NCBI RefSeq assembly: GCF_011398355.1
Contig: NZ_AP021889.1
Coordinates: 1,054,001-1,118,000 of the forward strand
Length of the DNA stretch: 64,000 bases
Direction: 5' to 3'
From: Thiosulfatimonas sediminis
Lineage (GTDB): Bacteria > Pseudomonadota > Gammaproteobacteria > Thiomicrospirales > Thiomicrospiraceae
Shown in pieces: positions 7,401-24,644 of this stretch (position 1 is its first letter; each line of letters opens with the position of its first letter). The position numbers and the translations under genes are program-made. Below the pieces are notes generated by a model. That model ran no database searches. It had not been told where the DNA came from and saw only the letters and a list, made by a program, of their open reading frames with translations.

Positions 7401-9732
7401 GTTGCAGGCGGCCTTAAATAATAATAGGAATTTTGATGCCATTTTCCGGATTCGTCGACCAGATGGCGAAATCAGACACGTAAAAGCTTCAGCCGCCTTA
7501 CAGTTCGATGAACAGGGCAATAAAATTGCTATGGTCGGTACCAATCTTGATATTACGCCGCTGCAATTGGCGATTGAGTCCGCGCAAAAGGCCAACCAGT
7601 CTAAGTCGGCGTTTTTAGCCAACATGAGCCATGAAATTCGTACCCCTTTAAACGGTATTATTGGGTTGACCAATTTGGTGTTGGAGAGCGAACTCGAACC
7701 GGTTCAGCGTGATTATTTAACCAAAGTACAAAAAACCTCCAACGCTTTAACCCATATTATTAACGATATATTGGATTATTCAAAAATTGAAGCCGGTAAG
7801 TTGGACATAGTGCCGACGGCTTTCCATTTAGACGATTTGTTGTCAAAAGTCTCTGACCTGTTTGCCTATCCTGTGCATCAAAAAGGGGTTTCTTTAATTT
7901 TCACTATTGCACCGAATATGCCACAAATTTTGGTTGGTGACGTGATGCGCTTAACGCAAGTGCTGAACAACTTAGTTGGCAACGCCGTCAAATTTACCAA
8001 ACAGGGGCATATTCGCATTAACGCTGAGGTGGTCAAGCAACAAGCACTTGATATTACCCTTAAGTTTGACGTTGAAGACACCGGAATTGGGATGAATCAA
8101 GCTAAACAACAAAAACTGTTTCAGGCTTTTGAACAAGGCGATTCAACGACCACCAAAGAGTATGGTGGTACGGGGTTGGGGTTAATGATTTCTAAGAAAC
8201 TAGTGCAGATGATGGGCGGCGATATCAGCGTGAACTCTCAAGAGAACAAAGGCTCCACCTTCAGCTTTATCACCCAATTGAAGGTTGATCAGAGTGCGCG
8301 ACCAATCGATTTAAGTCGTATTCAAGGGCGCTCTGTTCTCGTGGTTGATGATAATGAGATTGATCGTGAGTTTATCAGCCGTACGCTGGATGCCGCACAC
8401 GTTAAAGTGAGTACGGCAGCAAGTGCGAAAGAAGCGCTTGCAATAATGCAAAAAGATCATTTTGATTGTGTCTTGACCGACTGGAAAATGCCGGATATGG
8501 ACGGCTTGGAGTTGGTGTCGCGGATTGTTCATGGTAGCCAAAAGGTTGACAAAGTGATTATGGTGACCGCCTTTGACCGCGAACATTTAATGCAAGCAGC
8601 TAAGAAAAAGAATGTGCAGTTGCAGTCCGTATTGAGTAAGCCATTTACGCCTTCTAGTCTGTTTAACGTTTTATTTGATTTGGATTCCAGCAGTGATCAA
8701 TCGCGTTTTACCGCTCCACAGAAGTTTCAATTGAATCATTCAATTTCTGCATTGGTTGCAGAAGATAATGAAGTAAATCAAATTGTTAGTGAGAATTTAT
8801 TAAATAAATTAGGGTGTCAAGTCGCGTTGGCTAATGATGGTTTGGAAGCGGTACAGATGGCCAAAACGGGTGATTATGATGTTATCTTTATGGATTTGCA
8901 TATGCCTAAAATGGATGGTTACGAAGCAGCACGCCAAATTCGTTTGTTTAACGCCGACATCCCGATTTTTGCGTTGAGCGCGGCGGTAATGCAAGAAGAT
9001 AAAACCTTAGCATATCAGTCTGGAATGAATGCGCATTTAGCAAAACCGATTGATGAGTCTGAGTTGACGCAGTTGTTAGATACTTATTTTCAGCAGGCCG
9101 ATAGCACAGAAGGGGCAACCCAAAGTGAGTCGGTAGTGAAGGCGGATGAGGGGATTCCTGAACAGATTTGCAGTTTTGATATGCAGGCGCTGTATGATAA
9201 GTGGCAGTTTAACGATTTTGACAAGCTCTATTCGCTGTATGTGACTTATCTCAATAGTTTTTCTGATGTCTTGAACGAGTTAGATGCCTTCTCGAATGAT
9301 AAAGCGCAGCTTTTGAGTTTGATTCACAAAATCAAAGGCGCGAGCGCTAATATGTTATTTGAGGCGGTCACCGAACTATGTACTGCGATTGAACAACAAG
9401 GGGTTACGGTAGAAAGACTCGCTTTATTAAAAGAGGCGTTATCGGTCATTTTGAATGATATTAAACGTTTTGTGGTTCCCTTAGTGTCTGGACAGAAGCG
9501 CCAAGGCGATAAAACGCCAGCGCAACTTGAGGCGCTATTGCTCGCTTTAATTGATGATTTGGAAATGCAACGTTTTATTACTTATGATCGTTTGCAAGAA
9601 GTGTTGGATGAGGTTTTAGAACGGACAACTGAAGCGCATATCCAAGCACTGTTTGAATTTTATGAGCAACAAGATGATGACGCCTTGCTTGAGGGACTCA
9701 AGCGTTTACTGGTAGAGGTTGCAGGTGAATAA
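4462..9732 (+). CDS. Giant hybrid histidine kinase (SBP3, PilJ-type, four PAS, HisKA, two receivers, HPt)
   Basis: A 1756-residue sensor. The order is: signal peptide (1-22); a periplasmic SBP_bac_3 domain (about 30-260); membrane helix (about 275-300); a second helix (about 322-345); an extracytoplasmic PilJ/NarX-like four-helix domain with INISGKQRMWSQ; a third helix (about 475-500); four PAS domains with PAC tails (about 530-647, 665-776, 788-907, 917-1033); HisKA with phospho-acceptor His1057 in MSHEIRTPL; HATPase; receiver 1 (Asp1340); receiver 2 (Asp1478); and HPt with His1622 in LIHKIKGASANM. All phosphorelay residues are intact. The start is TTG with aagg 7 bases upstream, supported by the signal peptide that begins exactly there. 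The last bases overlap the following diguanylate cyclase gene, so that response regulator is the likely target. The ligands (amino-acid-like solute, and oxyanion by analogy with NarX) are guesses. Confidence 0.92.
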   Translation: MNKFFLFIFFIINALYLPVSSAENELQFTPEEQAYLANTPQINVGFTSVFEPLLIRQKNGSLDGALPEIYNLIAEIMPVEFVFQDGDWLELLADVQNSQLDAIAVMNQKTAQQRGLLTVELPFEFPPTVFALKNRNFQVQNSGDLKVLKISYAANILYLADYLEKQFIGSQLIPVANSRDAIDKVMDQSADVAILHSYDTYLLKKTNNTQIEPIAILSDVINVNVIGVDPDNPLLQSILQKAVNHLSRYQLLDVIEHWSYISTPDIASKSIQQIPIVSTYVWIFVGTATLLLLLALYILIKKQRLAFMQDSPVSSVSLKPEYFIALITVSLFTVLIYTLNMAIKEKKVYAEIINISGKQRMWSQNTVLLAKEYFKTLKVADLVRYKSAVGEMSSGFQKLTNLQNTYDSQKIYFNNLQIGNQVEDFLDLHKAFIQTNNPDYLNELFVTSQTLLVTLDGVVNYHEKFVNSEVDKQLYYAWLVLGLLIFTILIEFFFVYVPSLRGARNLAARLSSEKTRLDELNQQLMEQEGLLQIALDKNGWAYWDFDLIHNKRHFSSLGYQILGYDSSKEVPLNGWEMMIHPDDRAAVMVAFSKLLNAEVDSYENTYRILNAEKRYIWNRVFATVPKRDPISNEPQLVVGIFADVTEEIASKNALLNSEKQLKQAHKISHLASWTLNHESGQFIWADEIYPLLGTESSKLGASFENFLQMIHPMDRTKVQEAFSRSIQQQKELFIEHRLLIDNKAIKYVVERAVHTYDSDGNLLLTNGSIQDITDQKNTEMSLIEANKNLSSLAQNVPGMVYSFHLLPDGRSFLPYASEAIYQIYGVHPEEVVNDASLIFERIHKYDINRVSAKITESETNLSNWVDEYRVNHPTKGTIWVKGFAKPERQPDGSTIWYGYLYETTNEKLAEQAREQFALQLDIATKSSNQGIWVWDLRSNELHWDENMHRLYGIKSSDKVEYYSLWKDALLEEDAEQAESSLQAALNNNRNFDAIFRIRRPDGEIRHVKASAALQFDEQGNKIAMVGTNLDITPLQLAIESAQKANQSKSAFLANMSHEIRTPLNGIIGLTNLVLESELEPVQRDYLTKVQKTSNALTHIINDILDYSKIEAGKLDIVPTAFHLDDLLSKVSDLFAYPVHQKGVSLIFTIAPNMPQILVGDVMRLTQVLNNLVGNAVKFTKQGHIRINAEVVKQQALDITLKFDVEDTGIGMNQAKQQKLFQAFEQGDSTTTKEYGGTGLGLMISKKLVQMMGGDISVNSQENKGSTFSFITQLKVDQSARPIDLSRIQGRSVLVVDDNEIDREFISRTLDAAHVKVSTAASAKEALAIMQKDHFDCVLTDWKMPDMDGLELVSRIVHGSQKVDKVIMVTAFDREHLMQAAKKKNVQLQSVLSKPFTPSSLFNVLFDLDSSSDQSRFTAPQKFQLNHSISALVAEDNEVNQIVSENLLNKLGCQVALANDGLEAVQMAKTGDYDVIFMDLHMPKMDGYEAARQIRLFNADIPIFALSAAVMQEDKTLAYQSGMNAHLAKPIDESELTQLLDTYFQQADSTEGATQSESVVKADEGIPEQICSFDMQALYDKWQFNDFDKLYSLYVTYLNSFSDVLNELDAFSNDKAQLLSLIHKIKGASANMLFEAVTELCTAIEQQGVTVERLALLKEALSVILNDIKRFVVPLVSGQKRQGDKTPAQLEALLLALIDDLEMQRFITYDRLQEVLDEVLERTTEAHIQALFEFYEQQDDDALLEGLKRLLVEVAGE

Positions 9733-10966
9733 TAAAGTTATTTTAGCGGTTGATGATGAGCGCAGTAATATCGAAGTATTAGCCAATATTTTGGGTGATA
9801 CTTACGATTTACGCGTTGCCAGCCGTGGTGATAAGGCCTTAGAAAGCATTAAGAAATTCCAAGTAGATTTGATTTTATTGGATATTCAAATGCCTGGGAT
9901 GGATGGTTTTGAAGTCGCGGAAATTATTTTGCAAGACCCGCTTTATAAAGATATCCCGATTATTTTCTTGACCTCTTCACGCGATGAAGGTTCGATTGTG
10001 CGCGGTTTTAAAATGGGGGCGGTGGATTACATCACCAAACCGTTTAACCGAGAAGAGCTGCGCGTTCGGGTCGAAAATCACCTGCAGTTAAGTGAATTAA
10101 AGCTGTTTTTTCAATCCTTACTCGATTCGCTCTCGTCGATTGTCGTCTTAACTAATGGTCAAGATGTTTTTTATGGCAATCAGTCTTTATTGAATTTTTT
10201 CCAATTTGATTCTCTCGCCGAGTTTAAAAGCAAATACAGCCGCTTGGATAAGTTGTTTCTCAAAGACGAAAACCAGTTTTTTTGTGACCCTAATAACCCC
10301 GAATCTTGGATTGCGCAATTATTACGCTTAGAAAGTCATCAACGTACTGTCGCGATGAGTTCTAAGCACAATCAAGCCAAACACATTTTTCGAGTAAATT
10401 TAAAGCAGATGCCGCTCAGCCACCTGTATCTTGCTGAGTTTATTGACATTAGTCATGACTTTCATGCGCAGAGAATTTTGCTCGATAAAACTTTGCACGA
10501 CCCTTTAACAGGGGCTTTTAATCGCGAGTTTTTTGATAAAAACATCGATTCAATTTTGGCGCATAATCAGACGAATAAGTTGCAAAGCGCAGTGGGTTTT
10601 ATGGACATTGATTTGTTTAAAAACGTCAACGATAAGTATGGTCACGATGTCGGTGATGCCACATTGAAAAAGATTGTGATGACGATTAAAAAAGAGATGC
10701 GTAATTCGGATGTTCTGTTGCGTTGGGGGGGAGAGGAGTTTTTATTGATCATCTCTTTGGCCTCCGAGGCCGATTTAGCTCGGATTTTAGAAAAGTTTAG
10801 AAGCTTAATTGATCTACAAATTTTTGCGGATGTGGGACATGTTACCTGCAGTTTTGGCGCCTCTATCCATTGTCCCAATGAATCGATTCATGACACCATT
10901 AAACGCAGTGACCAAGCGTTATATCAATCCAAACACCGTGGCAGAAATTGCGTTACGATCGTCTAA
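9725..10966 (+). CDS. Receiver-GGDEF diguanylate cyclase
   Basis: A 413-residue response regulator. The receiver domain has the acidic VDDE pocket and Asp53 in LLDIQMPGMDG. A middle segment (about 130-255) resembles a weak PAS fold. The GGDEF domain carries an intact GGEEF active site (335-339) and a canonical inhibitory I-site RNSD (326-329) five residues before it, so it should make c-di-GMP from GTP and be product-inhibited. GTG 9725 was chosen over TTG 9719 because agagg at 9714-9718 is well placed for it; it overlaps the upstream kinase stop by 8 bases, which indicates translational coupling. The hybrid kinase with its terminal HPt is the obvious phosphodonor. Confidence 0.92.
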   Translation: MNNKVILAVDDERSNIEVLANILGDTYDLRVASRGDKALESIKKFQVDLILLDIQMPGMDGFEVAEIILQDPLYKDIPIIFLTSSRDEGSIVRGFKMGAVDYITKPFNREELRVRVENHLQLSELKLFFQSLLDSLSSIVVLTNGQDVFYGNQSLLNFFQFDSLAEFKSKYSRLDKLFLKDENQFFCDPNNPESWIAQLLRLESHQRTVAMSSKHNQAKHIFRVNLKQMPLSHLYLAEFIDISHDFHAQRILLDKTLHDPLTGAFNREFFDKNIDSILAHNQTNKLQSAVGFMDIDLFKNVNDKYGHDVGDATLKKIVMTIKKEMRNSDVLLRWGGEEFLLIISLASEADLARILEKFRSLIDLQIFADVGHVTCSFGASIHCPNESIHDTIKRSDQALYQSKHRGRNCVTIV

Positions 10967-13290: not shown

Positions 13291-13608
13291 GTAATTCATT
13301 TTTAAATTGCTGTCTTTGGTAACACCCTTATTCAAGTCATTATCTCTTGGTCAAAATCCGATAGGTGTTTTCGTAAATAATGATTGACTTATATTGCATT
13401 TAGTCATTAAATTAGCGCTCATTATCGATATGTATAAAAAGATATTTCGATTTTGGTCGCTATCAGCAGTCGTTCCTTGCTCAAGCCTAAATGGATTTAT
13501 TCTGTGTCTTAGGTTACATAGCCACTCGCGTTTGCGAGTTATTTTTTACTTATCGTTATTTACTTGAATACATAATGTTGATTGAGTAGTGATTTAAAGA
13601 GGTTTTTT
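13291..13608 (+). promoter_or_regulatory. Leader of the metal-chelate uptake operon with possible promoter
   Basis: No gene is visible in these 318 bases. A sigma-70-like pair ttgact (13384-13389) and ttaaat (13407-13412) with 17-base spacing points toward the operon. The stretch aataatgat around 13376-13384 and cattatc at 13420-13426 resemble halves of a Fur box, but there is no full 19-base match. A terminator-like hairpin lies further down. No cobalamin riboswitch B12 box was found. Iron control through Fur is therefore only a suggestion. Confidence 0.3.
13524..13547 (+). terminator. Terminator-like hairpin in the operon leader
   Basis: The stem actcgc/gcgagt (13524-13529 and 13534-13539) with loop gttt is followed by a T-rich tail to 13547. 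It is downstream of ycjF by about 230 bases and upstream of the TonB receptor start by about 60. It may end the ycjF transcript, or act as an attenuator if the promoter near 13384 is the one used by the uptake operon. Confidence 0.55.
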
Positions 13609-15660
13609 ATGCTCCTTCCGCCATTTACTAAAAAACGGGTTGTGATTGATTTACACAAGTTAATTTGGCTCAGTGCCTTTTGCGTCGCCGCAGTGAATGC
13701 GCATGCAGCCGAGGATTCCCCAGTCTTTACCTTGGGTAAAATTCAGGTTCAAGCCGTTGCGCAAACTTTGGACGCCGACTCGATTGATGTTGGGCAAAGT
13801 GCCGAGCAGGGCGCATCGAATGTCGGTGAAGTGATTGCAGAAGTCCCCGGCGTGATTGTGCAGGTCGGCGGACGCCGTGCCGAAACGCGGGCGAATATCC
13901 GTGGATTTGATTCGCGCCAAGTGATGCTCTTTTTGGATGGTATTCCGATTCATGTCCCTTATGACGGCAATATTGATTTAAGTCGTTTTCAATTGGCCGA
14001 TTTAACTCAGGTTGAGGTAACCAAAGGTTTGGGGTCATTGTTGGAAGGCCCGAATGCTTTAGGCGGCGCGATTAACTTAGTTACCCGTAAACCGACTAAG
14101 CCCTTGGAAGGCACTTTGGATGTTGCGCTCGAAGGCGGTGACAAGGGGCTGTTTAAGCATTCGCAAAACGTACAGGTCGGGGCGATTCTTAACCAACATT
14201 TTTATCTGCAAGCCGGAATCAGCGCCTTTGATGCAGATAATTTTCCGCTGTCCAGCGATTATCAACCGCAGGTAAATAATGGCACGGTCTATCAACCGGA
14301 AGGCGAGCGTTTGCGTTCCGGTTCGCAAAACCTAAGTGCCAATCTAAAACTTGGCTATACGCCAAATTCGACAGACGAATATTCGTTAAGTTTTTATCGT
14401 ACCGAAGGCTCCAAAGAGTCTAGCCCTTATGCCGGCACGGCGGATATGGTGCGCTATTGGGATTGGCCGCAGTGGGATAAACAGAGTCTGTACTATGTCG
14501 GTTACACGCAATTCGGTTCCGGTGAGCAGGCCGCTTATCTGAAATCCCGTCTTTTTTACGACCAGTTTGATAACGCTTTGAACTCTTATGACGATGAAAC
14601 TTATGCCACGGTAACCAAGGGTTACGCTTTTCGTTCGCAATATAACGATCAGAGCATCGGCGGTTCTTTAGAGGGCGGATTACCACTGGCCAACCATCTG
14701 TTGAAGGCGGCGCTGTTTGGTAAACAGGACGAGCATAAAGAGCGCGACAATGATAAAGATAATGCCGATTTGGATAATCGTTGGAAAACATTCCAAGCGC
14801 AAACCTATGCCTTGGCGCTGGAAGATCAGATTCAGCTCAGTGAGACGAGCCGACTGACCTTCGGTTATCGCTACGATCACTATGAGTTTACCAAAACCGA
14901 TGACGGCGATTCGGATACCGATCCAAAAGGCGCGCAGCATAAAGATAACTGGCAAGCCAAGTTGCATCATCAAATCGGCGCGCACGAACTGTTGGCCGGT
15001 CTGTCTTTGAAATCGCGTTTTCCGGGGATGAAAGATCAGGTGTCTTATCGTCTCGGGCAGGCGATTCCTAACTTAGATTTGCAAGCCGAGCAGGCGCTGC
15101 ATTATGAAGTAGGAATGGCGGGGACGATTGCTAATACCCGTTATCAAGCGAATCTTTTCTACGCCGATATTCGCGATGCGATTGAGACCGTCGAGGTCGC
15201 GGACACGAATGACGTTTGCGACGGCGAGACTTGTGATCAGAATCAGAATGTCGGTTCGGCAACCTCGAAAGGGTTTGAATTGCAAACGCGAACGGCGCTG
15301 ACCGATTCACTGGATTTGTCACTGAGCTACAGCTATTTGCTTCGAGACCTAGCCGATCCAAGTATTGTCGCGACTTATTCACCGAAAAATACGCTCAACT
15401 TGAAATTGAATTGGTATCCCAATTCGACATGGCATTTTGGTCTGGACGGACACTATCAGTCGCAGAGCGAAACGCGTTTTGACGGCACGCGTCCGACCGA
15501 TGGTTTTAGCCTGTGGAATCTGCGCGCACACTATCAAATAAACAAGGCGTGGAAAAGCAATCTTGTCTTGAAAAATGTGTTTGATCAAAACTATGAAATT
15601 GCCGAGGGTGATCCGATGCCGGGGCGCACGCTTTACGCCAATCTTCAGTATCGTTTTTAG
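13609..15660 (+). CDS. TonB-dependent outer membrane receptor 1
   Basis: A 683-residue outer membrane receptor. It has a signal peptide ending AHA|AE (about residue 34), a plug domain with the typical ANIRGFDSRQVMLFLDGIP and GLGSLLEGPNALGGAIN segments, a long beta-barrel, and a C-terminal phenylalanine. Such receptors import metal chelates, cobalamin and some sugars using TonB energy. The start is ATG 13609 with aaagagg six bases upstream; the frame stays open a little further back but without a better start. It is the first gene of an operon with a second receptor nine bases downstream and an ABC importer. The transported compound cannot be told from sequence; the FecCD-type importer points to a siderophore, cobalamin, or a molybdate/nickel chelate. 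Confidence 0.9.
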   Translation: MLLPPFTKKRVVIDLHKLIWLSAFCVAAVNAHAAEDSPVFTLGKIQVQAVAQTLDADSIDVGQSAEQGASNVGEVIAEVPGVIVQVGGRRAETRANIRGFDSRQVMLFLDGIPIHVPYDGNIDLSRFQLADLTQVEVTKGLGSLLEGPNALGGAINLVTRKPTKPLEGTLDVALEGGDKGLFKHSQNVQVGAILNQHFYLQAGISAFDADNFPLSSDYQPQVNNGTVYQPEGERLRSGSQNLSANLKLGYTPNSTDEYSLSFYRTEGSKESSPYAGTADMVRYWDWPQWDKQSLYYVGYTQFGSGEQAAYLKSRLFYDQFDNALNSYDDETYATVTKGYAFRSQYNDQSIGGSLEGGLPLANHLLKAALFGKQDEHKERDNDKDNADLDNRWKTFQAQTYALALEDQIQLSETSRLTFGYRYDHYEFTKTDDGDSDTDPKGAQHKDNWQAKLHHQIGAHELLAGLSLKSRFPGMKDQVSYRLGQAIPNLDLQAEQALHYEVGMAGTIANTRYQANLFYADIRDAIETVEVADTNDVCDGETCDQNQNVGSATSKGFELQTRTALTDSLDLSLSYSYLLRDLADPSIVATYSPKNTLNLKLNWYPNSTWHFGLDGHYQSQSETRFDGTRPTDGFSLWNLRAHYQINKAWKSNLVLKNVFDQNYEIAEGDPMPGRTLYANLQYRF

Positions 15661-15669
15661 GAGATAGCG

Positions 15670-17637
15670 ATGAAATTCCATTCACCGAAATTAAAACAAT
15701 CGGTTTTATCCGCGGCTTTATTGGCCGTCATGCTTGAAATTCAGGCGGGCGAACAATTGGAGGTGGTCGAAGTCAATCCGGCCAAGGGGATACAGACTGA
15801 TGATGTTTATTCCGAACCGAAAAGCTTTAGTCACAATACGCAGACGTTTACCCAAGAGTCGATGCGCGATCTGCCGATTGCCAATGCCTATGAAATGCTG
15901 GATTACGCAACCGGTGCCTTTATTCAAACCCAAGGTCGTAAGTCAGCGTATTTTGCCAGTATTCGTGCCGGCTCCAATCTTGGGATGATTATCGACGGTG
16001 CCTATCTGCCGCCGCCGGCAGCCTCAAAAGTGTTAATGCAACTTCCGGTTAGCGCGATTGAGTCGATTAGTGTTGTGCGTGATGCCAGTGCTTTGAATCT
16101 GGGGCCTTTGACTTCGATTGTCGGCCCTATGACCAGTTCGCGTACCGAAGGGTTTATTGTGATTAAGACCTTGAGTGCTTTTAAACAGCCGCAGCGCGAA
16201 CTGCACGCAAAGGTCGGAAGTTACCGGCAGTTTGAGGTAGATACCAGCTTATCCGCGCACTTCTCCGAAGAGGTTGCCGGGCGCGTGGTATTGGCGCATC
16301 AGCAGAAACAAGGGCCGAGCGATTACTACAACGACTATCGGCGCGATGTCGGCCTATGGAAGTTAGATGGGTTAGGCGAACACTTCGACTGGCAACTTAA
16401 CTTTTTTCATGCCGATGGCGAGCAAGGTCTGCAACGCGGTCTGGACAGCTCCGGTGTCAGTGATGACAAATGGCGTTATGAACCGTTAAAAATGCGAATG
16501 ATCAATGCGCAAGCCGGTTATTACTGGAATGCGCACAGCACCACAGCGGTGCGTTTATCGCATACGCAAAGCGATGCCAGTTTGCAAAAGTACAGCCATG
16601 TCAATCCGAACGCTTATGCCGAGGAAAAGACCGAGGAAGAATTTATTAACCTTGATTTAAGTCACGCCCTCAATCACGAGTTGGCCGGCGGGCAAAATTT
16701 GCTGCGTTTTGGTTATAACTCTATGTGGTACCACAATCCGACCGGCATGCTGTATTACCCGGGATTTGAGCGTAAAGAGCAGATTCAGGCACTTTATTTA
16801 CAGAATGAATTCCGCAAACAGGCGTGGTCAGTGGATATGGGATTGCGCGCCGATAAACGTACGATTGACGTGGGGTATGAGCAGGTCGCAAATCAGCGCA
16901 GAATCATTGAAGATGTTGAGTTAGACGCCTTGCTGACCGCGGCCATTGGCGCCAGTTATCAGGCCAGCGAGCAAGATTTGTTGACCTTGCGCACACTCTA
17001 TACCGAGCAGCAACCGCTCAGCGTTTATACCGCGAATAACGATCAATTGGCGCAAGAGAACCGTTTGCGCACTGAGTTGGGCTGGAGTCGTCAGTGGATA
17101 GCTTTGGCCCAAGCGCGTTTTAGCACGACTTTAACCGGATTCCATGAGCGTTTGCAAGACGGTGCTTATGTTGCCAGTCAGATTGAGGACCCAGAAGACC
17201 CCAACAGTAAGATTAATGTTTATGACAATGCCAGTTGGCGCAATCAAGGCTATGAAATTGAGATCAAAGGCGCTTGGCACAGGCTGAATTATGAAATCGC
17301 CTACAGCCGAGTCTCGCCGGGTGACACGCCAAGCGGCGTGGTGAATGTGCCGGAGTCTTTAGTGCGCGCTCGCATCGGTTATCAAACCCCGGCGTGGCAG
17401 TTGCATTTAGGCGCTCGCAATATGGAGGAGTTTATTTCTGCCAACAAAGCCGGAATCGGCACGGCCGGTGGCTTTACCACCTACGACGCTTCCGCCGGTT
17501 ACCGTTTTAAAACCGATGGTTTAGCGCATCGTTTGGTGTTTTCGGCCAAAAACTTGACTGACGAGAAATACGAAACGGTCTACGGCTTTCCAAGCGAAGG
17601 GCTGAATTTAGGGGTGGATTATTATGTTCGTTTCTAA
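15670..17637 (+). CDS. TonB-dependent outer membrane receptor 2
   Basis: A 655-residue receptor with signal peptide (about 1-27), a plug domain (about 50-180) and a beta-barrel ending in VDYYVRF, whose last residue is the usual aromatic. It is not a close copy of the preceding receptor: the plug motifs differ (IRAGSNLGMIIDGAYLPPP). A ggag lies eight bases before the ATG. The end overlaps the binding-protein gene by 14 bases. Two different receptors feeding one periplasmic system suggests either two related ligands or two redox or metal forms of one ligand. Confidence 0.88.
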   Translation: MKFHSPKLKQSVLSAALLAVMLEIQAGEQLEVVEVNPAKGIQTDDVYSEPKSFSHNTQTFTQESMRDLPIANAYEMLDYATGAFIQTQGRKSAYFASIRAGSNLGMIIDGAYLPPPAASKVLMQLPVSAIESISVVRDASALNLGPLTSIVGPMTSSRTEGFIVIKTLSAFKQPQRELHAKVGSYRQFEVDTSLSAHFSEEVAGRVVLAHQQKQGPSDYYNDYRRDVGLWKLDGLGEHFDWQLNFFHADGEQGLQRGLDSSGVSDDKWRYEPLKMRMINAQAGYYWNAHSTTAVRLSHTQSDASLQKYSHVNPNAYAEEKTEEEFINLDLSHALNHELAGGQNLLRFGYNSMWYHNPTGMLYYPGFERKEQIQALYLQNEFRKQAWSVDMGLRADKRTIDVGYEQVANQRRIIEDVELDALLTAAIGASYQASEQDLLTLRTLYTEQQPLSVYTANNDQLAQENRLRTELGWSRQWIALAQARFSTTLTGFHERLQDGAYVASQIEDPEDPNSKINVYDNASWRNQGYEIEIKGAWHRLNYEIAYSRVSPGDTPSGVVNVPESLVRARIGYQTPAWQLHLGARNMEEFISANKAGIGTAGGFTTYDASAGYRFKTDGLAHRLVFSAKNLTDEKYETVYGFPSEGLNLGVDYYVRF

Positions 17638-18736
17638 AATCATTAAACCGCGCAAACAACCCCTGTTTGCCGCGAAAAAACGGGTGCAATCTTGGTGGTT
17701 GATGGCCACTTTAAGCGGCACGGTTTTCGGCGGCGCACTGCTTGCCCAGTCGGCACAAGCGCAAGATGCGCCTATGCCGTCTTGCCAAATCAACAGCGAG
17801 GCGCAGCGCGTTTACGGCGCTAACCCGATTGTCACCTATATGCTGGTGGCGATGGCACCACAAAAGCTGATGGGATGGAATTTTCCGGTGTCGCCGCAGG
17901 CGAAAGGGATTTTTCCCGATGCGCTGTTTGCTAAGCCGATTATCGGCGGCTGGTTCGGTCAGGGCAGAACGCCGAATATGGAAGTGCTGCTTGCCGGTCG
18001 TCCGCAACTGATTGTGATGTCGGACGCGATGGTGGATTCCAAACGGCAACAGCTCTTGCAGCAAATGGACGTGCCGGTTTGTTATCTGACTTTGAATCGT
18101 TTGGACGATTTCCCTGATAGTTTTCGTCGTTTAGGGGAGTGGTTGCACAATCCGCAAAGAGGCGAGCAGTTGGCGCAAGCGATGGAGCAGCTTTTGGCGC
18201 AACAAAGTCGTTTAAAAGCCTTGTTACAAGAGCGAAATATTGCCTTGAAAAGCGTGTATTACGCGCAAGATCCGAATGGGTTGGCATCGGAATGCCGCGG
18301 TTCGATTCATGCCGAAGTGATACCTTGGGCGGGGGCGGTCAATCCGCATCTCTGTCCGGCCGAACAATCACGTTTCGGCAAGGTCGCCATCAATATTGAG
18401 CAACTGCTGAAATACGACCCCGATGCGATCGTGACCCAAGAGCGCGCCTTTTACGACAAGGTTTATCAGATGCCGAATTGGCAAGGCCTAAAAGCCGTGC
18501 AGAACAAACAGGTGTTTTTTGCCCCGCAAACCCCGTTTCGCTGGTTGGACCGCCCGCCGTCGTTTATGCGCATTTTAGCGGCGCAGTGGCTAATGCAAAA
18601 ACTCTATCCGCACGTGGCGCAGATTGCCGCGCTGGACACCGTGCAAACGACACAAGACTTTTTCAAATTATTTTTCCAAGTCGAGTTAAGCCGCGAACAA
18701 GCGCAAACTTTGCTGGAAGGAGGACAGCTATCATGA
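17624..18736 (+). CDS. Periplasmic metal-chelate binding protein (FepB/BtuF-like)
   Basis: A 370-residue protein with an extended signal peptide ending SAQAQ|D (about residue 46) and two lobes typical of PF01497 binding proteins. It contains RVYGANPIVTYMLVAMAP near the mature N-terminus and IEQLLKYDPDAIVTQE in the second lobe. It should hand the chelate to the FecCD permease. The start overlaps the receptor gene by 14 bases and the stop overlaps the monooxygenase start (atga), so the operon is tightly coupled. Four cysteines are visible in the mature part, which is unusual and could form two disulfides. Ligand unknown. Confidence 0.85.
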   Translation: MFVSKIIKPRKQPLFAAKKRVQSWWLMATLSGTVFGGALLAQSAQAQDAPMPSCQINSEAQRVYGANPIVTYMLVAMAPQKLMGWNFPVSPQAKGIFPDALFAKPIIGGWFGQGRTPNMEVLLAGRPQLIVMSDAMVDSKRQQLLQQMDVPVCYLTLNRLDDFPDSFRRLGEWLHNPQRGEQLAQAMEQLLAQQSRLKALLQERNIALKSVYYAQDPNGLASECRGSIHAEVIPWAGAVNPHLCPAEQSRFGKVAINIEQLLKYDPDAIVTQERAFYDKVYQMPNWQGLKAVQNKQVFFAPQTPFRWLDRPPSFMRILAAQWLMQKLYPHVAQIAALDTVQTTQDFFKLFFQVELSREQAQTLLEGGQLS

Positions 18737-19767
18737 GAAGCAAACCGATTCAATTGGGTGCAATGCTGCATATTACGCCGCAGCTTGGACAGTCTGCGGC
18801 GCAGACCTATCAGAGCTTTACCGATTTAGTGCAAGATCTCGACCACTTAGGATTTGACCATGCTTGGGTCACCGAACACCATTTTAACGACATGAGTCTG
18901 ACCCCAGCACCCACGCAGATTATGGGGCATTTATTGGCCAAAACCGAACGCATTCAAGTGGGGGCGGCGGCTTTGTTGGTCGGGTTTCATAATCCGATTG
19001 CGGTCGCCGAACAGCTGGCCGTGTTGGACAGGCTCTATCCTCGGCGAGTGTTATGCGGTTTTGCCAAAGGCGGCCCGTTTGAATCGCAAAACAGTGCCTT
19101 TAAGGCAGATAAGGATTTAAGCCGTTCACGCATGTTGGAGGCGCTTCCGGCGATGTTAGAACTGTGGCAAGAGCAGGGTGCTTGTACTCATCACGGCGAG
19201 CATTTTCAATGGCAGCAGCTTAATTTACAGCCTAATGCCGAAATTACTGCGCAACAGCTGTTTGTAGCCAGCGGCGATGCGCAGACCATTGCCATGGCGG
19301 TGCAGAACGGTTTGGGGTTAATGGCGGCGCAATTTTGGGATTTTGACAAAATTCAGCAACAGATTACGCTTTATAAACGCCATGCCGAAACCTATTTTTC
19401 TAAACCAAAACCGCCGCGGATGATGGCGGCACGCGGCTTGTTTATGGATAGAAATGCGGCGGTCGCTAAACAGCAAGCACTGGAGCATATTCGCAGTTTC
19501 CGCGAGCAGAAAGCCAAGCATTGGGGCAAAGCACCGGGGCCTATGGCCAAGTTGCAGCCAGAGGAGATGTTGGAGCGCATGCTGTGCGGCACGCCGGAGG
19601 AAGTCATGGATAAGGTGATTCATCTTTTGCACAACGGGGTGACTGATCTGGTGCTTAATCCATTGACGCAAAATCATTGTTTGCGTACCGAGCAGTTACA
19701 TTGGTTCTATAACGAAATTTGGCAAAATTTACCCAATCATACCTTTGCCAAATCCATGGCAAGTTAG
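18733..19767 (+). CDS. Luciferase-like (LLM class) flavin-dependent monooxygenase
   Basis: A 344-residue cytoplasmic protein of the bacterial luciferase-like TIM-barrel family: DHAWVTEHHFNDMSLTPAP near residue 45, then AAALLVGFHNPIAVAEQLA, and the C-terminal GTPEEVMDKVIHLLHNGV seen in this family. These enzymes use reduced FMN and oxygen; relatives cleave alkanesulfonates, or chelators such as nitrilotriacetate and EDTA. The start ATG 18733 overlaps the upstream stop by four bases and has ggagga eight bases ahead, so the long frame that continues back to 18478 is not used. Its position between a binding protein and its permease suggests it acts on the imported compound after entry. No such reaction is shown by the sequence itself. 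Confidence 0.85.
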   Translation: MRSKPIQLGAMLHITPQLGQSAAQTYQSFTDLVQDLDHLGFDHAWVTEHHFNDMSLTPAPTQIMGHLLAKTERIQVGAAALLVGFHNPIAVAEQLAVLDRLYPRRVLCGFAKGGPFESQNSAFKADKDLSRSRMLEALPAMLELWQEQGACTHHGEHFQWQQLNLQPNAEITAQQLFVASGDAQTIAMAVQNGLGLMAAQFWDFDKIQQQITLYKRHAETYFSKPKPPRMMAARGLFMDRNAAVAKQQALEHIRSFREQKAKHWGKAPGPMAKLQPEEMLERMLCGTPEEVMDKVIHLLHNGVTDLVLNPLTQNHCLRTEQLHWFYNEIWQNLPNHTFAKSMAS

Positions 19768-19776
19768 CTACCACCT

Positions 19777-20811
19777 ATGAATGAACGGTTAAATGGTACA
19801 AGATTTTCTTCGCGGACGATCTTAGTTTTGCTGGCGCTTTTACTGCTCGCCAGCGGATTGCTTTCGTTAAGCATGGGGCGTTACGATTTTGCCCCGCTGG
19901 GCAGTTTGGCGGAGTTATTAAAGCATTTCGGTTGGCTTTCCGGCCAAGCGGATCCGATCATGGTCAGTATTCTGATGGATGTGCGTCTGCCGCGTGTTTT
20001 GGCGGCAATGACCATTGGTGCGGCCTTGGCAATCAGCGGTGCCGCGTTTCAGGCCTTGTTTATGAATCCGCTGGTGTCTCCGGGCATTCTTGGCGTTCTC
20101 TCCGGCGCGGCTTTCGGTGCTTCCTTAGGGATTTTGCTTTCCGAAGAGATTTGGGTGATGCAATTACTCACTTTTATTTTCGGCCTCTTAGCCGTGGGCA
20201 TTGCTTTGCTGTTGGCTAAGGGCGAGCTTAAGCAGAATATGATTATTTTGGTACTCGGCGGCATGATTACCGGCGCGCTGTTTAGCGCCTTTTTGTCGAT
20301 TATCAAATACGTTGCCGACCCTTACAGCAAATTGCCGGCAATTACCTATTGGCTGATGGGCTCGCTTGCGAATGTGAACGGCGATCTGTTGTATTGGTTA
20401 ATTCCGTTCGTCTTGCTCGGCATGCTGATGCTGGTACTCAATGCTCATGTGCTAAATGTGCTGAGTTTAGGCGATGATGAAGCCAGAACACTTGGCGTTG
20501 CTGTCGAGAGAAAACGCATTCTAATTATCGTGGTTGCGACTTTTCTCAGTGCTTTAACGGTAACGCTGGGCGGCATGATCGGCTGGGTCGGTTTGGTGAT
20601 TCCGCACATCGTGCGCCTGCTGCTGGGCGCGGATAATCGTCTATTGCTACCGGCGTCGGCTCTACTGGGCGCTATCTATCTTGTCTGGGTTGATAATTTG
20701 GCGAGGATGGCCATTAGTATCGAAATCCCGCTAGGGATTCTAACCGCTTTAATAGGCTTGCCGGTGTTTGCTTGGGCGCTCAAAAACGCCAAAAAAGGCT
20801 GGCAAAACTAA
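19777..20811 (+). CDS. FecCD-family ABC transporter permease
   Basis: A 344-residue inner membrane protein with about ten hydrophobic helices, including the FecCD/BtuC hallmark regions DVRLPRVLAAMTIGAALAIS and GWVGLVIPHIVRLLLGADNR, and the coupling-helix stretch LGVAVERKR. The length fits the family. Ten bases separate it from the monooxygenase gene; the ribosome binding site is weak, consistent with coupling. It should pair as a homodimer with the downstream ATPase. Confidence 0.93.
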   Translation: MNERLNGTRFSSRTILVLLALLLLASGLLSLSMGRYDFAPLGSLAELLKHFGWLSGQADPIMVSILMDVRLPRVLAAMTIGAALAISGAAFQALFMNPLVSPGILGVLSGAAFGASLGILLSEEIWVMQLLTFIFGLLAVGIALLLAKGELKQNMIILVLGGMITGALFSAFLSIIKYVADPYSKLPAITYWLMGSLANVNGDLLYWLIPFVLLGMLMLVLNAHVLNVLSLGDDEARTLGVAVERKRILIIVVATFLSALTVTLGGMIGWVGLVIPHIVRLLLGADNRLLLPASALLGAIYLVWVDNLARMAISIEIPLGILTALIGLPVFAWALKNAKKGWQN

Positions 20812-20843
20812 GGTACAAAGTTATTGTAAAAGAAGTGAGTAAT

Positions 20844-21617
20844 ATGAAATTAAACACTGTTAAAGAGTGCCTTCTTGAAGCTAAAAAATTGGCGGGGGCA
20901 CATGGGAAAAATAGGGTTTTTAGCGATATTGATTTGCAATTAAAACAGGGCGAGGTGGTGGCTTTGCTTGGTCCGAACGGTTGCGGTAAAACGACTTTAT
21001 TACGTACTTTGCTTGGGTTACATCCTAAAACGGCCGGCGAGGTGTTTGTTCGAGGCGAGTCTTTCGAGCGCATCAAGCCGCAGCAAAGGGCGCGATTACT
21101 AAGCTATGTTCCGCAATATCATAAAATGGCGTTTGCTTATCCGGTTTTGGAGATGGTTTTAATGGCCGCCTACGGTGAGAAAGCGCCTTGGTTGCAGGCG
21201 TCTGCCGAGCAAGTCGATGGCGCGAAACGGGCCTTAGCATGGATGGGGATTGAACACTTGGCCACCAAACCTTATACCCAACTCTCCGGTGGTCAGCGGC
21301 AGATGGTGTTAATTGCCCGCGCCTATGCGCAAAATACGCCGATGATTATGATGGACGAGCCGACTAACGGCTTAGATTACGGTAATCAAATCAAACTCTT
21401 GCAAAGGGTCGAAGCACTGGCGGATGCCGGCAAAACCGTGTTGATGACCACGCATCATCCTGAGCATGCACTGCAGTGCGCTTCGCGCGCTATGACCATG
21501 AAAAATGGTCGTTTAATTGCCAATGGTTGTCCGCATAAGGTTTTAAATCCGGCGAGCATTCGCGAACTTTACGAGCTTTGCGAAACTGAAATGCCCTCCT
21601 GTTTAAGAACCGCTTAA
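20844..21617 (+). CDS. Metal-chelate ABC transporter ATP-binding protein
   Basis: A 257-residue ABC ATPase with Walker A GPNGCGKTT, Q-loop YVPQYHK, signature LSGGQRQ, Walker B MIMMDEPT, and a switch histidine in TTHHPEH. It is of the FepC/BtuD type. ATG 20844 is preceded by aagaagtgag; the frame extends back to 20772 inside the permease gene but without a ribosome binding site. It is the last gene of the uptake operon; the terminator stem begins within its final codons. Confidence 0.93.
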   Translation: MKLNTVKECLLEAKKLAGAHGKNRVFSDIDLQLKQGEVVALLGPNGCGKTTLLRTLLGLHPKTAGEVFVRGESFERIKPQQRARLLSYVPQYHKMAFAYPVLEMVLMAAYGEKAPWLQASAEQVDGAKRALAWMGIEHLATKPYTQLSGGQRQMVLIARAYAQNTPMIMMDEPTNGLDYGNQIKLLQRVEALADAGKTVLMTTHHPEHALQCASRAMTMKNGRLIANGCPHKVLNPASIRELYELCETEMPSCLRTA

Positions 21618-21640
21618 GCGGTTTTCTTAAGCGGTTTTTT
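21608..21640. terminator. Strong rho-independent terminator of the uptake operon
   Basis: An 11-bp perfect stem (aaccgcttaag at 21608-21618; cttaagcggtt at 21626-21636) with a 7-base loop and six T from 21635. It overlaps the ATPase stop codon and the end of the convergent tlpA-like gene, and probably serves both. Confidence 0.9.
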
Positions 21641-22916
21641 ATGGGTTTTGCTGAATCAATGCTTGTATCTGCTGCTTGATTTGTTCGTCATCCCATTCAA
21701 TCGCGGCATTAACCGAGTAGCGGATTTGACCGTTGGCGTCGATAAGGAAGGAGCTCGGGAAGGAGAAGATTTCATATTCGGCCGAGGTTTTGCCGTCTTG
21801 GTCGATCAATACCGGAAAATCGACTTGTACTTGTTTGAGAAAGTCGCGAATGCTTTGCGGCGATTCTTTAAAGTTAACCGAGACGATTTCAAATTTTTCA
21901 GCGTCAAAAGACTCTGCCAAGCGATTCATCGACGGAATCTCTTTGACGCACGGCGGGCACCAACTTGCCCAGAAATTCAACAAAATCACTTTGCCGCGCT
22001 TTTCGGAAAACATCAGTGTTTCGCCGTTAATGTCCTTTAGCGAGAAGTCGCTGGCAGGGCGCGCTTCTATGGCGATCAGGCCTTTTTTCCGTTCAGTCAC
22101 TTGCGCTAAGGCCAGCTGTTTTTCGGGTGCAAAACGGCGGTTGGCGTTCGGTTGCGAGATGCTGAGCCATTGTCCCAGATCGGTAACCAGTTTTTCGCTG
22201 GCGCGTTTTTCGATTTCGGTCGCATCTCGGCTTAAGAAGTACCAGTCGCGCACTTTCGGCACCGATACGAGCGTGACTTGGCTGTTATGGACATTTAAGG
22301 CGTTGACCAGTTCTGGCAGTTTCCATTGGAAGGTGCCTTCGCTGGGTTGCACGACGGTAATCGGTAAGCTGCTGGCGCTGACAATCGGGAAGAATTTCGG
22401 CGCGTCGCCGGCTTTTTCCGGTGCATTGTAGAGGTTGGGGAAGAACAGCACGGTTTGTTGCATCTGACCATAGCCGTCCGAAGGCGTGTCCGCCAGCTGC
22501 CATAGGCGAATACCGCGCAATAGGACGAGACTCATGCGTCCGCTGCTAATCGGCACGAAGGGTCTCTTTTGCTGTTGCGCATGACTTAAAACCGCGGCAA
22601 CGCCATCGCCTTTTAATTGGCGGATGTTCGTCGGAGTGCGTTCAATAAAATAAGATTCGAGCAGGTCGATTTGCCAGATGTCGTAGCCTTCGTCATTTAA
22701 TCGCTGAATAAGGTGTTTGAACGTGTTGCGCTCGGCATAGCCTTCGGTGAACCAGATTAGCAGCGGTTTGTGTGTATCGGGCTGGGATGCGTTAAATGTG
22801 TTGACGGTGATTTCTTCTGTGCCGCTGTTTAATGAGAAATTTGCGGCGTGCACGGGAAACCATAATCCCCAGAAAACCATGAGGTAGTTGAAAAGTAACT
22901 TTCCATTACGCATCAT
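21639..22916 (-). CDS. TlpA-like thioredoxin fused to an unrecognised N-terminal domain
   Basis: A 425-residue secreted protein. It has a signal peptide (about 1-24), then about 230 residues of an alpha/beta-like domain (PLLIWFTEGYAERNTFKHLI; a possible degenerate hydrolase fold with SSGRMSLVLL in the place of a nucleophile elbow), then a C-terminal TlpA/ResA-type redoxin (about 285-425) with active site WASWCPPC and the cis-proline region FSFPSSFLID. The redoxin half should reduce or form disulfides in the periplasm. The N-terminal half is not recognised with confidence. It is convergent with the uptake operon and sits downstream of the HPt and MBL genes on the same strand. Confidence 0.8.
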   Translation of the reverse strand: MMRNGKLLFNYLMVFWGLWFPVHAANFSLNSGTEEITVNTFNASQPDTHKPLLIWFTEGYAERNTFKHLIQRLNDEGYDIWQIDLLESYFIERTPTNIRQLKGDGVAAVLSHAQQQKRPFVPISSGRMSLVLLRGIRLWQLADTPSDGYGQMQQTVLFFPNLYNAPEKAGDAPKFFPIVSASSLPITVVQPSEGTFQWKLPELVNALNVHNSQVTLVSVPKVRDWYFLSRDATEIEKRASEKLVTDLGQWLSISQPNANRRFAPEKQLALAQVTERKKGLIAIEARPASDFSLKDINGETLMFSEKRGKVILLNFWASWCPPCVKEIPSMNRLAESFDAEKFEIVSVNFKESPQSIRDFLKQVQVDFPVLIDQDGKTSAEYEIFSFPSSFLIDANGQIRYSVNAAIEWDDEQIKQQIQALIQQNP

Positions 22917-22973
22917 TCATTTCCAAATATTAGAGCGGTGTATTCAAGTGGACTTGGTTCTGTCCAATCCCCT

Positions 22974-23291
22974 TTAATAACGCGCTATCAGTTGTTTAAT
23001 ATTGTCTTGTTCGAGTTCAATTTCTTTGATTAACAGACTAAAGTGTTCGCGAGCGGTTGATTCTGCGCCGTGATCGAGTATGTCTTCCACACTTTCAATG
23101 TGTTTGCCGATAAGGTCTAAGCCAACCGAGTAGCAGTTGCCTTTTAATTTATGCAGTGCCAGTTTGCGCTCGTTTGTGTGTTGTAGCTTTTTGATTTCAA
23201 CGGGCCAAGTGGCATTGAATAACGTATACAGTTCAATAAAGTTGGTAATACCTATGGCGTCAATAATTTCTTGCGTTCGATTGCCTATCAT
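22974..23291 (-). CDS. Stand-alone HPt phosphotransfer protein
   Basis: A 105-residue all-helical protein with the HPt signature LHKLKGNCYSVGL, phospho-acceptor His47. Such proteins shuttle phosphate from a hybrid kinase to a response regulator. The large hybrid kinase in this window has its own HPt, so this one probably serves a different kinase or offers a side branch. It lies 26 bases after the MBL-fold gene on the same strand. Confidence 0.82.
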   Translation of the reverse strand: MIGNRTQEIIDAIGITNFIELYTLFNATWPVEIKKLQHTNERKLALHKLKGNCYSVGLDLIGKHIESVEDILDHGAESTAREHFSLLIKEIELEQDNIKQLIARY

Positions 23292-23317
23292 CGTGCGATA
23301 TGTTCCGTTGTCAAAGA

Positions 23318-24397
23318 TTAGTGTGCGGTTTGCTGAATGAGTTCTTGATAGATAAATTCGGCATTGGGTTCGGCGAGTTGCGAAAATACGGGTCGGTCTT
23401 TATGGGCGCTCTGGTCGATCGTTTTGGCGGCGTTTAAATCGCCGCCTTCGGCGATGACTTTTTGTATCTTGCCCGCCATGTCTTCAAAATAGCCGACGGT
23501 TTGACGACGAATAGTGGCCATATCGGCCGCAGTGCCGTGGCCGGGTATCACGATTGCTTCTGTCAGCGGGAAATAGCCGGCTACGGTCTGCTCCATTTTG
23601 TCGAAAGAGCGAATCCATTCTCGGTAGGAACCGCCTTTAAACAGCCCTGGCACACGTTGATTAAAGCCTAAGTCGCCGGTGAAGACGAGTTTTTTGGACG
23701 GCACGATCGCGCCGGTCATGGTCGGCGTATGGCCGCCGCCGTAGTTGATTAACTCTACCGTTTCGCCATTGCCGACATCAATGCTTAAACGCTCAGCAAA
23801 GGTCGTGTAAGCCGCCGTGACGTCTTGTGAATGTTGGTTGATGACATTTCCAGACGCCGCCATATAGCGCTTTTTTTGCGCTGGGAAATTTTCATGGAAC
23901 TCTGCGGTCGCTTGCTGCTGAGAATAGATGTTTTTTACGCCTATGTCATGCCAGTAGCTTGCGCCCATGTTGGCATGGCCTTGGTGGTTCTCAATCGCGA
24001 CCCATTTCACCGGCTTATCGGTAATGGCTTTAAGTTGCATATGAAATGCGTAGGCGACCGGCTCGTTCGGCCCTGCGTTATAGACAAACACACCGTCCTG
24101 AAAAACCACCGCCGTCATATTGTTGTTAAAACCGAAATTGTTTCGCGTTCCCCAAATTTGGCTACCTACCGCCATGTAAACATCCGGTGCGATCGGTTGC
24201 AGTGCTGGAATCGGTAAACGCGGACCTATGTAGCCTAACCGTTTTTCAAGGGCGTGTAGTTCAGCTTGATAAGCCTTTAGACCTCTATCATAAGCGTCCT
24301 CAGCACTGTATACGGTGTGACTACCAAAAATACCGATGGTTAAGATAAGCAGGCTTGTGCGGCTGGTGAATGTAAATGGAAAGTTATGCGTAAACAT
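23318..24397 (-). CDS. Exported metallo-beta-lactamase-fold protein with atypical metal motif
   Basis: A 360-residue protein with a signal peptide (cleavage near VYSAED, about residue 32). The MBL fold is visible: AVVFQDGVFVYNAG, GGGHTPTM, VFTGDLGF and VIPGHG. The usual HxHxDH motif is replaced by ENHQGHANMG, so several standard zinc ligands are missing or shifted. The nearest relatives by feel are the SoxH/quinoprotein-relay hydrolases. ATG 24397 is chosen because aagga lies 7 bases upstream and the signal peptide begins there; the frame extends to 24445 without support. Substrate unknown. Confidence 0.78.
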   Translation of the reverse strand: MFTHNFPFTFTSRTSLLILTIGIFGSHTVYSAEDAYDRGLKAYQAELHALEKRLGYIGPRLPIPALQPIAPDVYMAVGSQIWGTRNNFGFNNNMTAVVFQDGVFVYNAGPNEPVAYAFHMQLKAITDKPVKWVAIENHQGHANMGASYWHDIGVKNIYSQQQATAEFHENFPAQKKRYMAASGNVINQHSQDVTAAYTTFAERLSIDVGNGETVELINYGGGHTPTMTGAIVPSKKLVFTGDLGFNQRVPGLFKGGSYREWIRSFDKMEQTVAGYFPLTEAIVIPGHGTAADMATIRRQTVGYFEDMAGKIQKVIAEGGDLNAAKTIDQSAHKDRPVFSQLAEPNAEFIYQELIQQTAH

Positions 24398-24644
24398 ATC
24401 GGCATCCTTAGTCGGTGTTTCGGTCTTTGTGAGAACACTATACATTTTGCTTTTTGCAGTGCAAATCGGATTTCACTGAATTGCATTAATTTCATGATTT
24501 AGACCTTTAATTGATGTAAAAAATTTACATATTAAAAATAATGTGATAATTTACCATAAATGTCGAATTGGTAGTTTTATTTGAAAAAGTACTGCTATCT
24601 ACTTATTTAGTAAATGGTTTAAATGAAGATTTTAGGGGTATCTG

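Follow-up and report, generated by a model that had tools for sequence, protein, structure and literature searches.

The stretch considered here (the window) is 64 kb of the genome of Thiosulfatimonas sediminis, a gammaproteobacterium of the Thiomicrospirales (contig NZ_AP021889.1, positions 1,054,001 to 1,118,000). It contains an operon of six genes encoding two TonB-dependent receptors (TBDR1 and TBDR2), a periplasmic binding protein (SBP), a bacterial-luciferase-like (LLM-class) flavin monooxygenase (LLM), a FecCD-type permease, and an ABC ATPase (Table 1). The initial annotation listed these genes, described the receptors as unlike, and read the whole as a metal-chelate uptake operon whose monooxygenase, of a class that includes chelator-degrading and desulfonating enzymes (NtaA, EmoA, and SsuD were named for comparison), may oxidatively cleave the imported ligand in the cytoplasm to free its metal. 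The six genes are confirmed on one strand with overlapping or closely spaced ends. An operon for a metal or metal complex with the LLM as a fixed member also stands, while the NtaA/EmoA/SsuD kinship does not. The full gene set of TonB-dependent FecCD-type (type-II) uptake is present (a receptor with plug and barrel, a PBP-2 binding protein, a permease, and an ATPase), and the gene content supports the prediction of a TonB-dependent type-II system that imports a metal or metal complex.

Table 1. Genes and putative operator sites of the uptake operon (window positions).
Feature	Position	Strand	Basis
ModE-operator-like site 1	13424..13451	n/a	17/20 specified positions, top match of whole window
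ModE-operator-like site 2	13552..13579	n/a	16/20 specified positions, runner-up in window
TBDR1, TonB-dependent receptor	13609..15660	+	PF07715 plug and PF00593 barrel; 12/12 order loci
TBDR2, second, unlike TonB-dependent receptor	15670..17637	+	PF07715 plug only; 6/12 order loci, one split in assembly
SBP, type-II periplasmic binding protein, MolA/BtuF-like kind	17624..18736	+	PF01497
LLM-class (bacterial-luciferase-like) flavin monooxygenase	18733..19767	+	PF00296, 185 bits (cut-off 27.9)
FecCD-type permease	19777..20811	+	PF01032, 274 bits
ABC ATPase	20844..21617 (alternative start TTG 20772)	+	PF00005

A 9-bp gap separates the receptor genes, TBDR2 and SBP overlap by 14 bp, the 4-bp overlap of SBP and LLM reads ATGA and comes with a ribosome site of the GGAGG type, and 9 bp lie between LLM and the permease gene. 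The open frame of LLM opens upstream at 18478, and the ATG at 18733 is its likely start. The ATPase could begin at TTG 20772 (40-bp overlap with the permease) or ATG 20844 (32-bp gap). The latter is more likely, since it is residue 25 of the long form and the best family matches begin at residues 32-35. The receptors are considered unlike because TBDR1 has both plug and barrel whereas TBDR2 matches the Pfam plug model alone and no NCBIfam model at 0.001. TBDR1 is preceded by a 318-bp gap containing both ModE-like sites. Between the two sites, at 13519-13550, is a small hairpin with a T run after it, which by eye resembles a terminator.

Conservation and distribution of the operon

At 1e-20, 12 of the 62 order genomes searched have the LLM. 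A gene-order survey, which the initial annotation had named as a check, found TBDR1-SBP-LLM-permease-ATPase in the same order on one strand in 12/12 of these genomes, and the retention of this order in every LLM-bearing genome out of 62 argues that the arrangement is not due to chance. (Labels beginning with G denote genomes and those with L loci; L018 belongs to G040, L020 to G015, and Thiomicrorhabdus marina, T. marina below, is G029.) In L018 and L020 the permease and ATPase genes are separated by extra genes. Both loci also have a cluster, read by eye, with a sigma-54-type regulator, two c-type cytochrome-like open reading frames (ORFs), a metallo-beta-lactamase-like ORF, and a 158-aa ORF (L018:7494-12578 and L020:13686-18932, with LLM turned to +); it lies between permease and ATPase in L018 and after the ATPase in L020. 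TBDR1, TBDR2, and modD of G050 (L019, L157) and modD of G042 (L155) are split in their assemblies.

Among 369 genomes drawn evenly from the class, three have the LLM at 1e-40, one of them new (G206). A scan of 84,980 species, with one genome per species, gave 88 LLM relatives, of which the best 80 were kept. Among these 80, 17 loci have a receptor, SBP, permease, or ATPase of the set within 10 kb (five of them, L027-L031, from genomes already counted), 53 are cyanobacterial loci without the transporter set (five with scattered permease or ATPase matches), and 10 have neither. The LLM is an operon member also in Thiomonas, a Halothiobacillaceae metagenome-assembled genome (MAG), Aliarcobacter, and others. 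The order differs in Aliarcobacter, where LLM precedes SBP. Some loci are partial: L070 has a receptor and mod genes without SBP or permease, and L079, a 3.7-kb contig, has the permease alone. By eye, the LLMs of L096, L097, L099, and L100 have no molybdenum or transporter context, and L102-L106 gave no match to the other operon queries or to mod queries. Viral contigs contained no LLM relative. Plasmids contained three weak ones at 1e-20, including one of Methylovirgula HY1 in which LLM is followed by a gene annotated as xanthine dehydrogenase, with no transporter of the operon's kind listed.

The nameable hosts with LLM and transporter are Thiomicrorhabdus, Hydrogenovibrio, Thiomonas, and Aliarcobacter, together with the Halothiobacillaceae MAG. 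These are mostly sulfur oxidisers or organisms of sulfide-oxygen interfaces. Several other hosts are MAGs of unclear habit (SZAS-76, SZAS-77, Burkholderiaceae, Propionibacteriaceae).

The SBP family is found more widely, at 1e-30 in 11 of 398 genomes of the phylum, 10 besides the window's own. By blast, nine of these ten further loci have the permease and four a receptor. Genes linked to molybdenum occur in 4/10 (blast or Pfam): ModE and ModA in L173, MOT1 and a ModE-like gene in L175, ModE in L177, and ModD with a methyltransferase in L179. A DUF2478 gene adjoins SBP in L174, and ORFs similar to it by eye occur in L176 and L177.

Signals that point to molybdenum

Passages of PMC545781 give the E. 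coli ModE operator consensus as ATCGNTATATA-N6-TATATANCGAT. When this consensus was scored over its 20 specified positions, the top two places of the window, at 13424 and 13552, both fell upstream of TBDR1, and every other place scored at most 14/20. Among 300 first-order Markov sequences of 64 kb, a score of 17 was reached by one and a score of 16 by eight. All 12 operons of the order have a site of 14-17/20 upstream of TBDR1, equalled by 0-5 of 200 shuffles, and in 8/11 fetched orthologous loci (16-20 kb) this region holds the best ModE-like site of the locus. Elsewhere, the modE starts of Aliarcobacter loci L070 and L092 score 18, the Halothiobacillaceae MAG 17, four Thiomonas-type loci 13-16, and the modA start of the T. 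sediminis genome 16. Starts of mod sets in L152, L154, L157, L027, and L151 and of the genome's own porin-modA2 set score 14, with 2-9 of 200 shuffles equal. Scores are unremarkable at the modE starts of G000 (10), L022 (12), and L150 (12) and at the left end of L084 (11).

The T. sediminis genome encodes a full-length ModE (L159:6614-7495, minus strand), with an N-terminal domain at 79.3 bits (cut-off 98.5) and two Mop domains over cut-off; its gene stands before modA-B-C. A second molybdate-type set comprises an Alginate_exp porin, modA2, modB2, modD, and modC2 (L149:8185-12475, minus strand). Both sets lie about 1 Mb or more from the operon. A ModE-like DNA-binding stretch, matching the ModE of L092 at 41-49%, occurs between permease and ATPase in three loci (L018:2783-2983, L020:8026-8226, and L022:8064-8288, all on the minus strand).

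Genes of the mod type lie within about 10 kb of 13 of the 25 LLM loci with transporter genes (6/12 in the order and 7/13 outside it). In T. marina (G029) the porin-modA2-B2-D-C2 set is directly upstream of TBDR1, and in G050 it lies about 6 kb before TBDR1, as does ModD in G025. A modE-A-B-C-x-D set converges on the operon in G055; between permease and ATPase, G015 has ModD and G040 the ModE-like stretch. In G206, modA-B-C is upstream of LLM. Loci L033, L035, and L037 have modA and ModE-like genes on the opposite strand within about 7 kb, two of them also with modB and modC. In the Aliarcobacter loci L070, L084, and L092, modE-A-Mop-B-C is followed by TBDR-LLM, which continues in L084 and L092 with SBP-permease-ATPase-methyltransferase. 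When representatives were compared with NCBIfam, modA (three) and modD exceeded the cut-off; modB passed it in L022 and L092 and was just short of it in G000 (second set). For the ModE N-domain, L092 was over the cut-off and L022 and G000 were under it; two Mop domains accompany it in each. The modC of L022 is named by Pfam alone (ABC plus TOBE). A small molybdopterin-domain gene (PF00174, SUOX-like) recurs beside the operon (L024:7839-8435 and L092:14476-15009 by Pfam, L022:13735-14307 by blast).

ModD occurs in 12/62 genomes of the order, a count that takes in matches exceeding the cut-off and two genes broken up by assembly, and 10 of these are among the 12 LLM genomes (hypergeometric P 3.8e-8, a value that ignores kinship). 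The SBP profile ranks three PDB chains (4pag at 2.6e-104, 4ovk, and 4hn9) above the molybdate-binding MolA HI_1472 (3.6e-22), and B12, iron, and nickel proteins follow. Because ModE-like sites, mod neighbours, ModD co-occurrence, and the relation of SBP to MolA agree, the imported metal is very probably molybdenum or tungsten, as far as sequence comparison can tell.

If the molybdenum signals were coincidental, the operon could be an ordinary one for uptake of a siderophore, haem, cobalamin, or nickel, which would account for the NCBIfam matches listed for TBDR1, SBP, and the permease. These are to generic siderophore, haem, and B12 models, and all are below curated cut-offs. The ModE sites, mod neighbours, and ModD co-occurrence argue the other way, and the window contains no Rfam riboswitch at the gathering threshold (Fur boxes were not searched for). 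Such an operon is thus highly improbable, and iron siderophores, haem, cobalamin, and nickel were rejected as the leading interpretation of the cargo on these grounds.

The monooxygenase and its possible role

The LLM is the sole PF00296 match in the 2.72-Mb genome. Its PDB profile ranks luciferase alpha first (9e-34), far ahead of an SsuD chain (2.4e-7), an NTA-type chain (1.2e-6), and MsuD (1.2e-4). The AlphaFold2 model (pLDDT 86.4, pTM 0.87) was compared with known folds by Foldseek and by VIA-align, whose list covers the Foldseek top 1000 alone, so that absence from it excludes nothing. An Enhygromyxa luciferase came first (8cbb, E 1.8e-22, Z 35.5), followed closely by V. harveyi luciferase and RslO1; luciferase alpha scored Z 34-35, SsuD and MsuD Z 28-30, EmoA 27.5, and an NTA enzyme 27.1. 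The best NCBIfam match is the MsnO8 family (TIGR03558, 121.6 of 166.95 bits), and the LuxA family (NF052254) gives 73.8 of 600 bits, both below cut-off. From sequence and predicted fold, the LLM is nearest to bacterial luciferase and RslO1. An EHHF motif is invariant in alignments A1 and A3, and the start of the protein, read by eye, is not signal-like.

Kinship with the chelator-degrading enzymes NtaA and EmoA, as raised in the initial annotation, is not supported by these ranks, and the NTA/EDTA model TIGR03860 matches nothing in the genome at 0.001. Kinship with SsuD is not supported by the tree, where E. coli SsuD joins RutA on long branches, far from the 41 rows among which the LLM falls. 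Both were therefore discarded. The tree has 51 rows and leaves out L095 (for which no row was found), L103, L027-L031 as duplicates, and most cyanobacterial loci (39 of the 53, L098 and L101 included). Of the 22 rows marked as LLMs of uptake operons, 19 group together (support 98/94). The three Aliarcobacter rows are nearer to cyanobacterial LLMs on a weak branch, and several branches are long. L079, L089, and L090 possess part of the transporter genes and were not marked in this way; they lie outside the group of 19. E. coli YhbW sits on a very long branch within the set of 41.

Taken together, the operon probably serves ModE-controlled, TonB-dependent acquisition of molybdenum (possibly tungsten), with the LLM freeing molybdate by oxidation of a ligand. 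The genes, their conservation, the ModE-like sites, the full-length ModE encoded elsewhere, and the molybdenum-gene neighbourhoods of relatives rest on sequence evidence; the molybdenum species, the direction of regulation, and each step of the LLM are inferred. Low cytoplasmic molybdate would cause ModE to leave the operators upstream of TBDR1, allowing expression of the operon. TBDR1, helped by TBDR2, would take a molybdenum species, probably a complex and not plain molybdate, across the outer membrane, and the MolA-like SBP would pass it on to the inner-membrane importer formed by the FecCD permease and the ATPase. Once inside the cytoplasm, its ligand would be oxidised by the LLM, which would draw FMNH2 from a general flavin reductase, and molybdate would be set free for cofactor synthesis. 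The genome encodes two members of the PF01613 flavin-reductase family. The position of LLM between SBP and permease, together with its enzyme class, suggests opening or oxidation of the ligand; action of the LLM on the imported ligand is tentatively proposed, at somewhat less than an even chance.

Several observations weigh against this reading. In three of the 11 fetched loci (L018, L020, and L022) the best ModE-like site lies away from the region upstream of TBDR1. A search with mod queries found no mod gene in the 64-kb window, in the fetched stretches of G027, G042, G051, G010, and G013, or in L032, L034, L036, L079, L089, and L090 (L032, L036, and L079 being short contigs). The LLM genomes G010 and G013 lack ModD, and G041 and G049 have ModD without LLM. 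MolA carries plain molybdate, so a molybdenum complex is not required, and both the ligand and the LLM reaction are predictions. The 53 cyanobacterial loci (among L038-L101) have a related LLM without the transporter set. Finally, LLM is beside SBP in none of the ten further SBP-family loci, which belong to other families. The initial annotation had treated absence of the monooxygenase from orthologous operons, together with its grouping among enzymes of unrelated pathways, as telling against it; the close family retains LLM in 12/12 and the wider SBP family lacks it in 10/10. LLM is thus an accessory that is fixed in a single branch, and import of this kind does not require it.

The LLM may be a passenger with an unrelated job in the molybdenum-starvation response (e.g., sparing or repair linked to molybdenum or nitrogenase cofactors). 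Its absence from the 10/10 other SBP-family loci suggests that it is dispensable for transport, and 41/53 cyanobacterial loci have, without a transporter, at least one mod/SUOX-like, nif/vnf/NifO-like, or hyp gene in the fetched stretch (about 10 kb). Mod or SUOX-like genes occur in 12, nif/vnf/NifO-like genes in 25, and hyp genes in 17, and Pfam confirmed NifH and two nitrogenase-type proteins in L043. This count has no background control and some genomes contribute two loci, so the cyanobacterial neighbourhood is a lead only. Against a passenger stands the fixed SBP-LLM-permease position in 12/12 order loci, which points to a role in the import path; in Aliarcobacter, LLM comes before SBP. 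A passenger is considered unlikely. The cyanobacterial LLMs also have two conserved neighbours, a 118-aa ORF in 48/53 loci, mostly just before LLM, and a 123-aa ORF in 41/53, mostly just after it; a Pfam search matched neither.

Neither an NRPS condensation domain nor an IucA/IucC synthetase was matched in the T. sediminis genome, which makes an external or inorganic ligand more likely; a self-made siderophore was rejected for these two routes (NRPS and NIS) alone. Another reading has the LLM contribute to synthesis of a small secreted molybdenum binder that the transporter retrieves, aided by the S-adenosylmethionine methyltransferase and ModD in loci that have them. A methyltransferase follows the ATPase in Aliarcobacter L084 and L092 and in the LLM-less L177 and L179 (the latter also with ModD), and RslO1, MsnO8, and PuwE are near in fold. 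LLMs such as these serve natural-product pathways. Since neither synthetase type is matched and the operon has no exporter or additional biosynthetic gene, synthesis of a binder has a low probability.

In a further reading, the imported species would be thiomolybdate (MoOxS4-x) from sulfidic water, from which the LLM would strip sulfur oxidatively to yield molybdate and oxidised sulfur. This idea rests on the hosts, whose nameable members mostly live at sulfide-oxygen interfaces by their known lifestyle, and on the formation of thiomolybdates from molybdate by sulfide, described in passages of PMC3528336. SsuD, SfnG, and MsuD have the same fold as the LLM. Other LLM enzymes cleave C-S bonds, but we know of none that acts on an inorganic sulfido ligand. 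Related LLMs occur in heterocystous cyanobacteria, which are not obviously sulfidic, several hosts are MAGs of unclear habit, and thiomolybdate fits through porins, so that TonB would be needed for affinity alone. Import of thiomolybdate is rather unlikely on this evidence. Equally doubtful is a broader proposal that combines TonB-dependent import of a molybdenum complex and destruction of its ligand by the luciferase-type LLM with thiomolybdate as the ligand in sulfur oxidisers and a role of the cyanobacterial LLM lineage in molybdenum handling.

The LLM might also be no oxygenase but an electron donor that reduces Mo(VI) by flavin or F420-like hydride transfer and so loosens the complex. The superfamily includes non-oxygenase reductases of the same fold (Mer, FGD). 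Both score below luciferase in sequence and structure, and the likely hosts are understood to live with oxygen, so reduction is very unlikely.

Two neighbouring regions of the window were noted in passing. At 4462-10966, a gene for a 1756-aa hybrid histidine kinase (SBP_bac_3, four PAS domains, two receivers, Hpt) overlaps a receiver-GGDEF gene. The minus strand at 21639-24445 encodes a TlpA/ResA-like thioredoxin whose N terminus is much extended, together with a metallo-hydrolase that resembles SoxH-related quinoprotein-relay proteins, below the family cut-off.

Comparison with known systems

Textbook entry of molybdenum into Gram-negative cells is by free molybdate via porins and ModABC. A ModE-linked TonB route, if true, means that some bacteria actively scavenge bound or thio-molybdenum, which bears on molybdenum limitation at sulfidic interfaces, and the conserved LLM would give one lineage of LLM enzymes a physiological role. 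It would also make release of molybdenum from complexes directly testable in culturable Thiomicrorhabdus or Thiomonas. Were thiomolybdate the substrate, the LLM would be the first enzyme to remove sulfur oxidatively from a metal sulfide anion. If the cyanobacterial LLM lineage near mod and nitrogenase genes does act on molybdenum, it would mark a wider, unrecognised molybdenum-handling enzyme.

Molybdenum-binding chelators (molybdophores) are in themselves already known. Passages of PMC5317091 assign a TonB-dependent receptor to thiamine and MOT1 to molybdate. A literature search that mostly did not extend to subscription journals found nothing joining a luciferase-like monooxygenase with molybdate, the ModE regulon with TonB, or Sulfurospirillum, molybdate, and TonB.

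Bacterial luciferase alpha, RslO1, MsnO8, and PuwE are among the nearest to the LLM in sequence and fold, but the LLM is below the LuxA and MsnO8 family cut-offs and sits in a transporter operon. NtaA and EmoA share the superfamily fold, with a weaker sequence match than luciferase. The closest solved binding protein is 4pag, which we take to be a Sulfurospirillum deleyianum periplasmic binding protein; to judge from the profile match, it probably belongs to the same transporter family as the SBP.

A cluster that is similar by description is FepA2-FecA4 of Acidithiobacillus ferrooxidans, proposed in PMC2631029 to import iron and molybdenum beside nif genes. It has two outer-membrane receptors, ferric-siderophore binding proteins, and one molybdate binding protein. 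It differs in being read there as ferric siderophore and molybdate import for nitrogenase, with a Fur box, and the words monooxygenase, luciferase, and methyltransferase are absent from the main text of that paper. The other close parallel is MolBC-A of Haemophilus influenzae (HI_1470-1472), a type-II molybdate/tungstate importer. The main text of PMC4031551 does not contain the word TonB, and its passages on MolBC-A, which imports molybdate with low affinity, show no LLM or receptor. The two operons are alike in combining a FecCD-type importer with a PBP-2-type binding protein, and the SBP of the T. sediminis operon is related to MolA (profile 3.6e-22).

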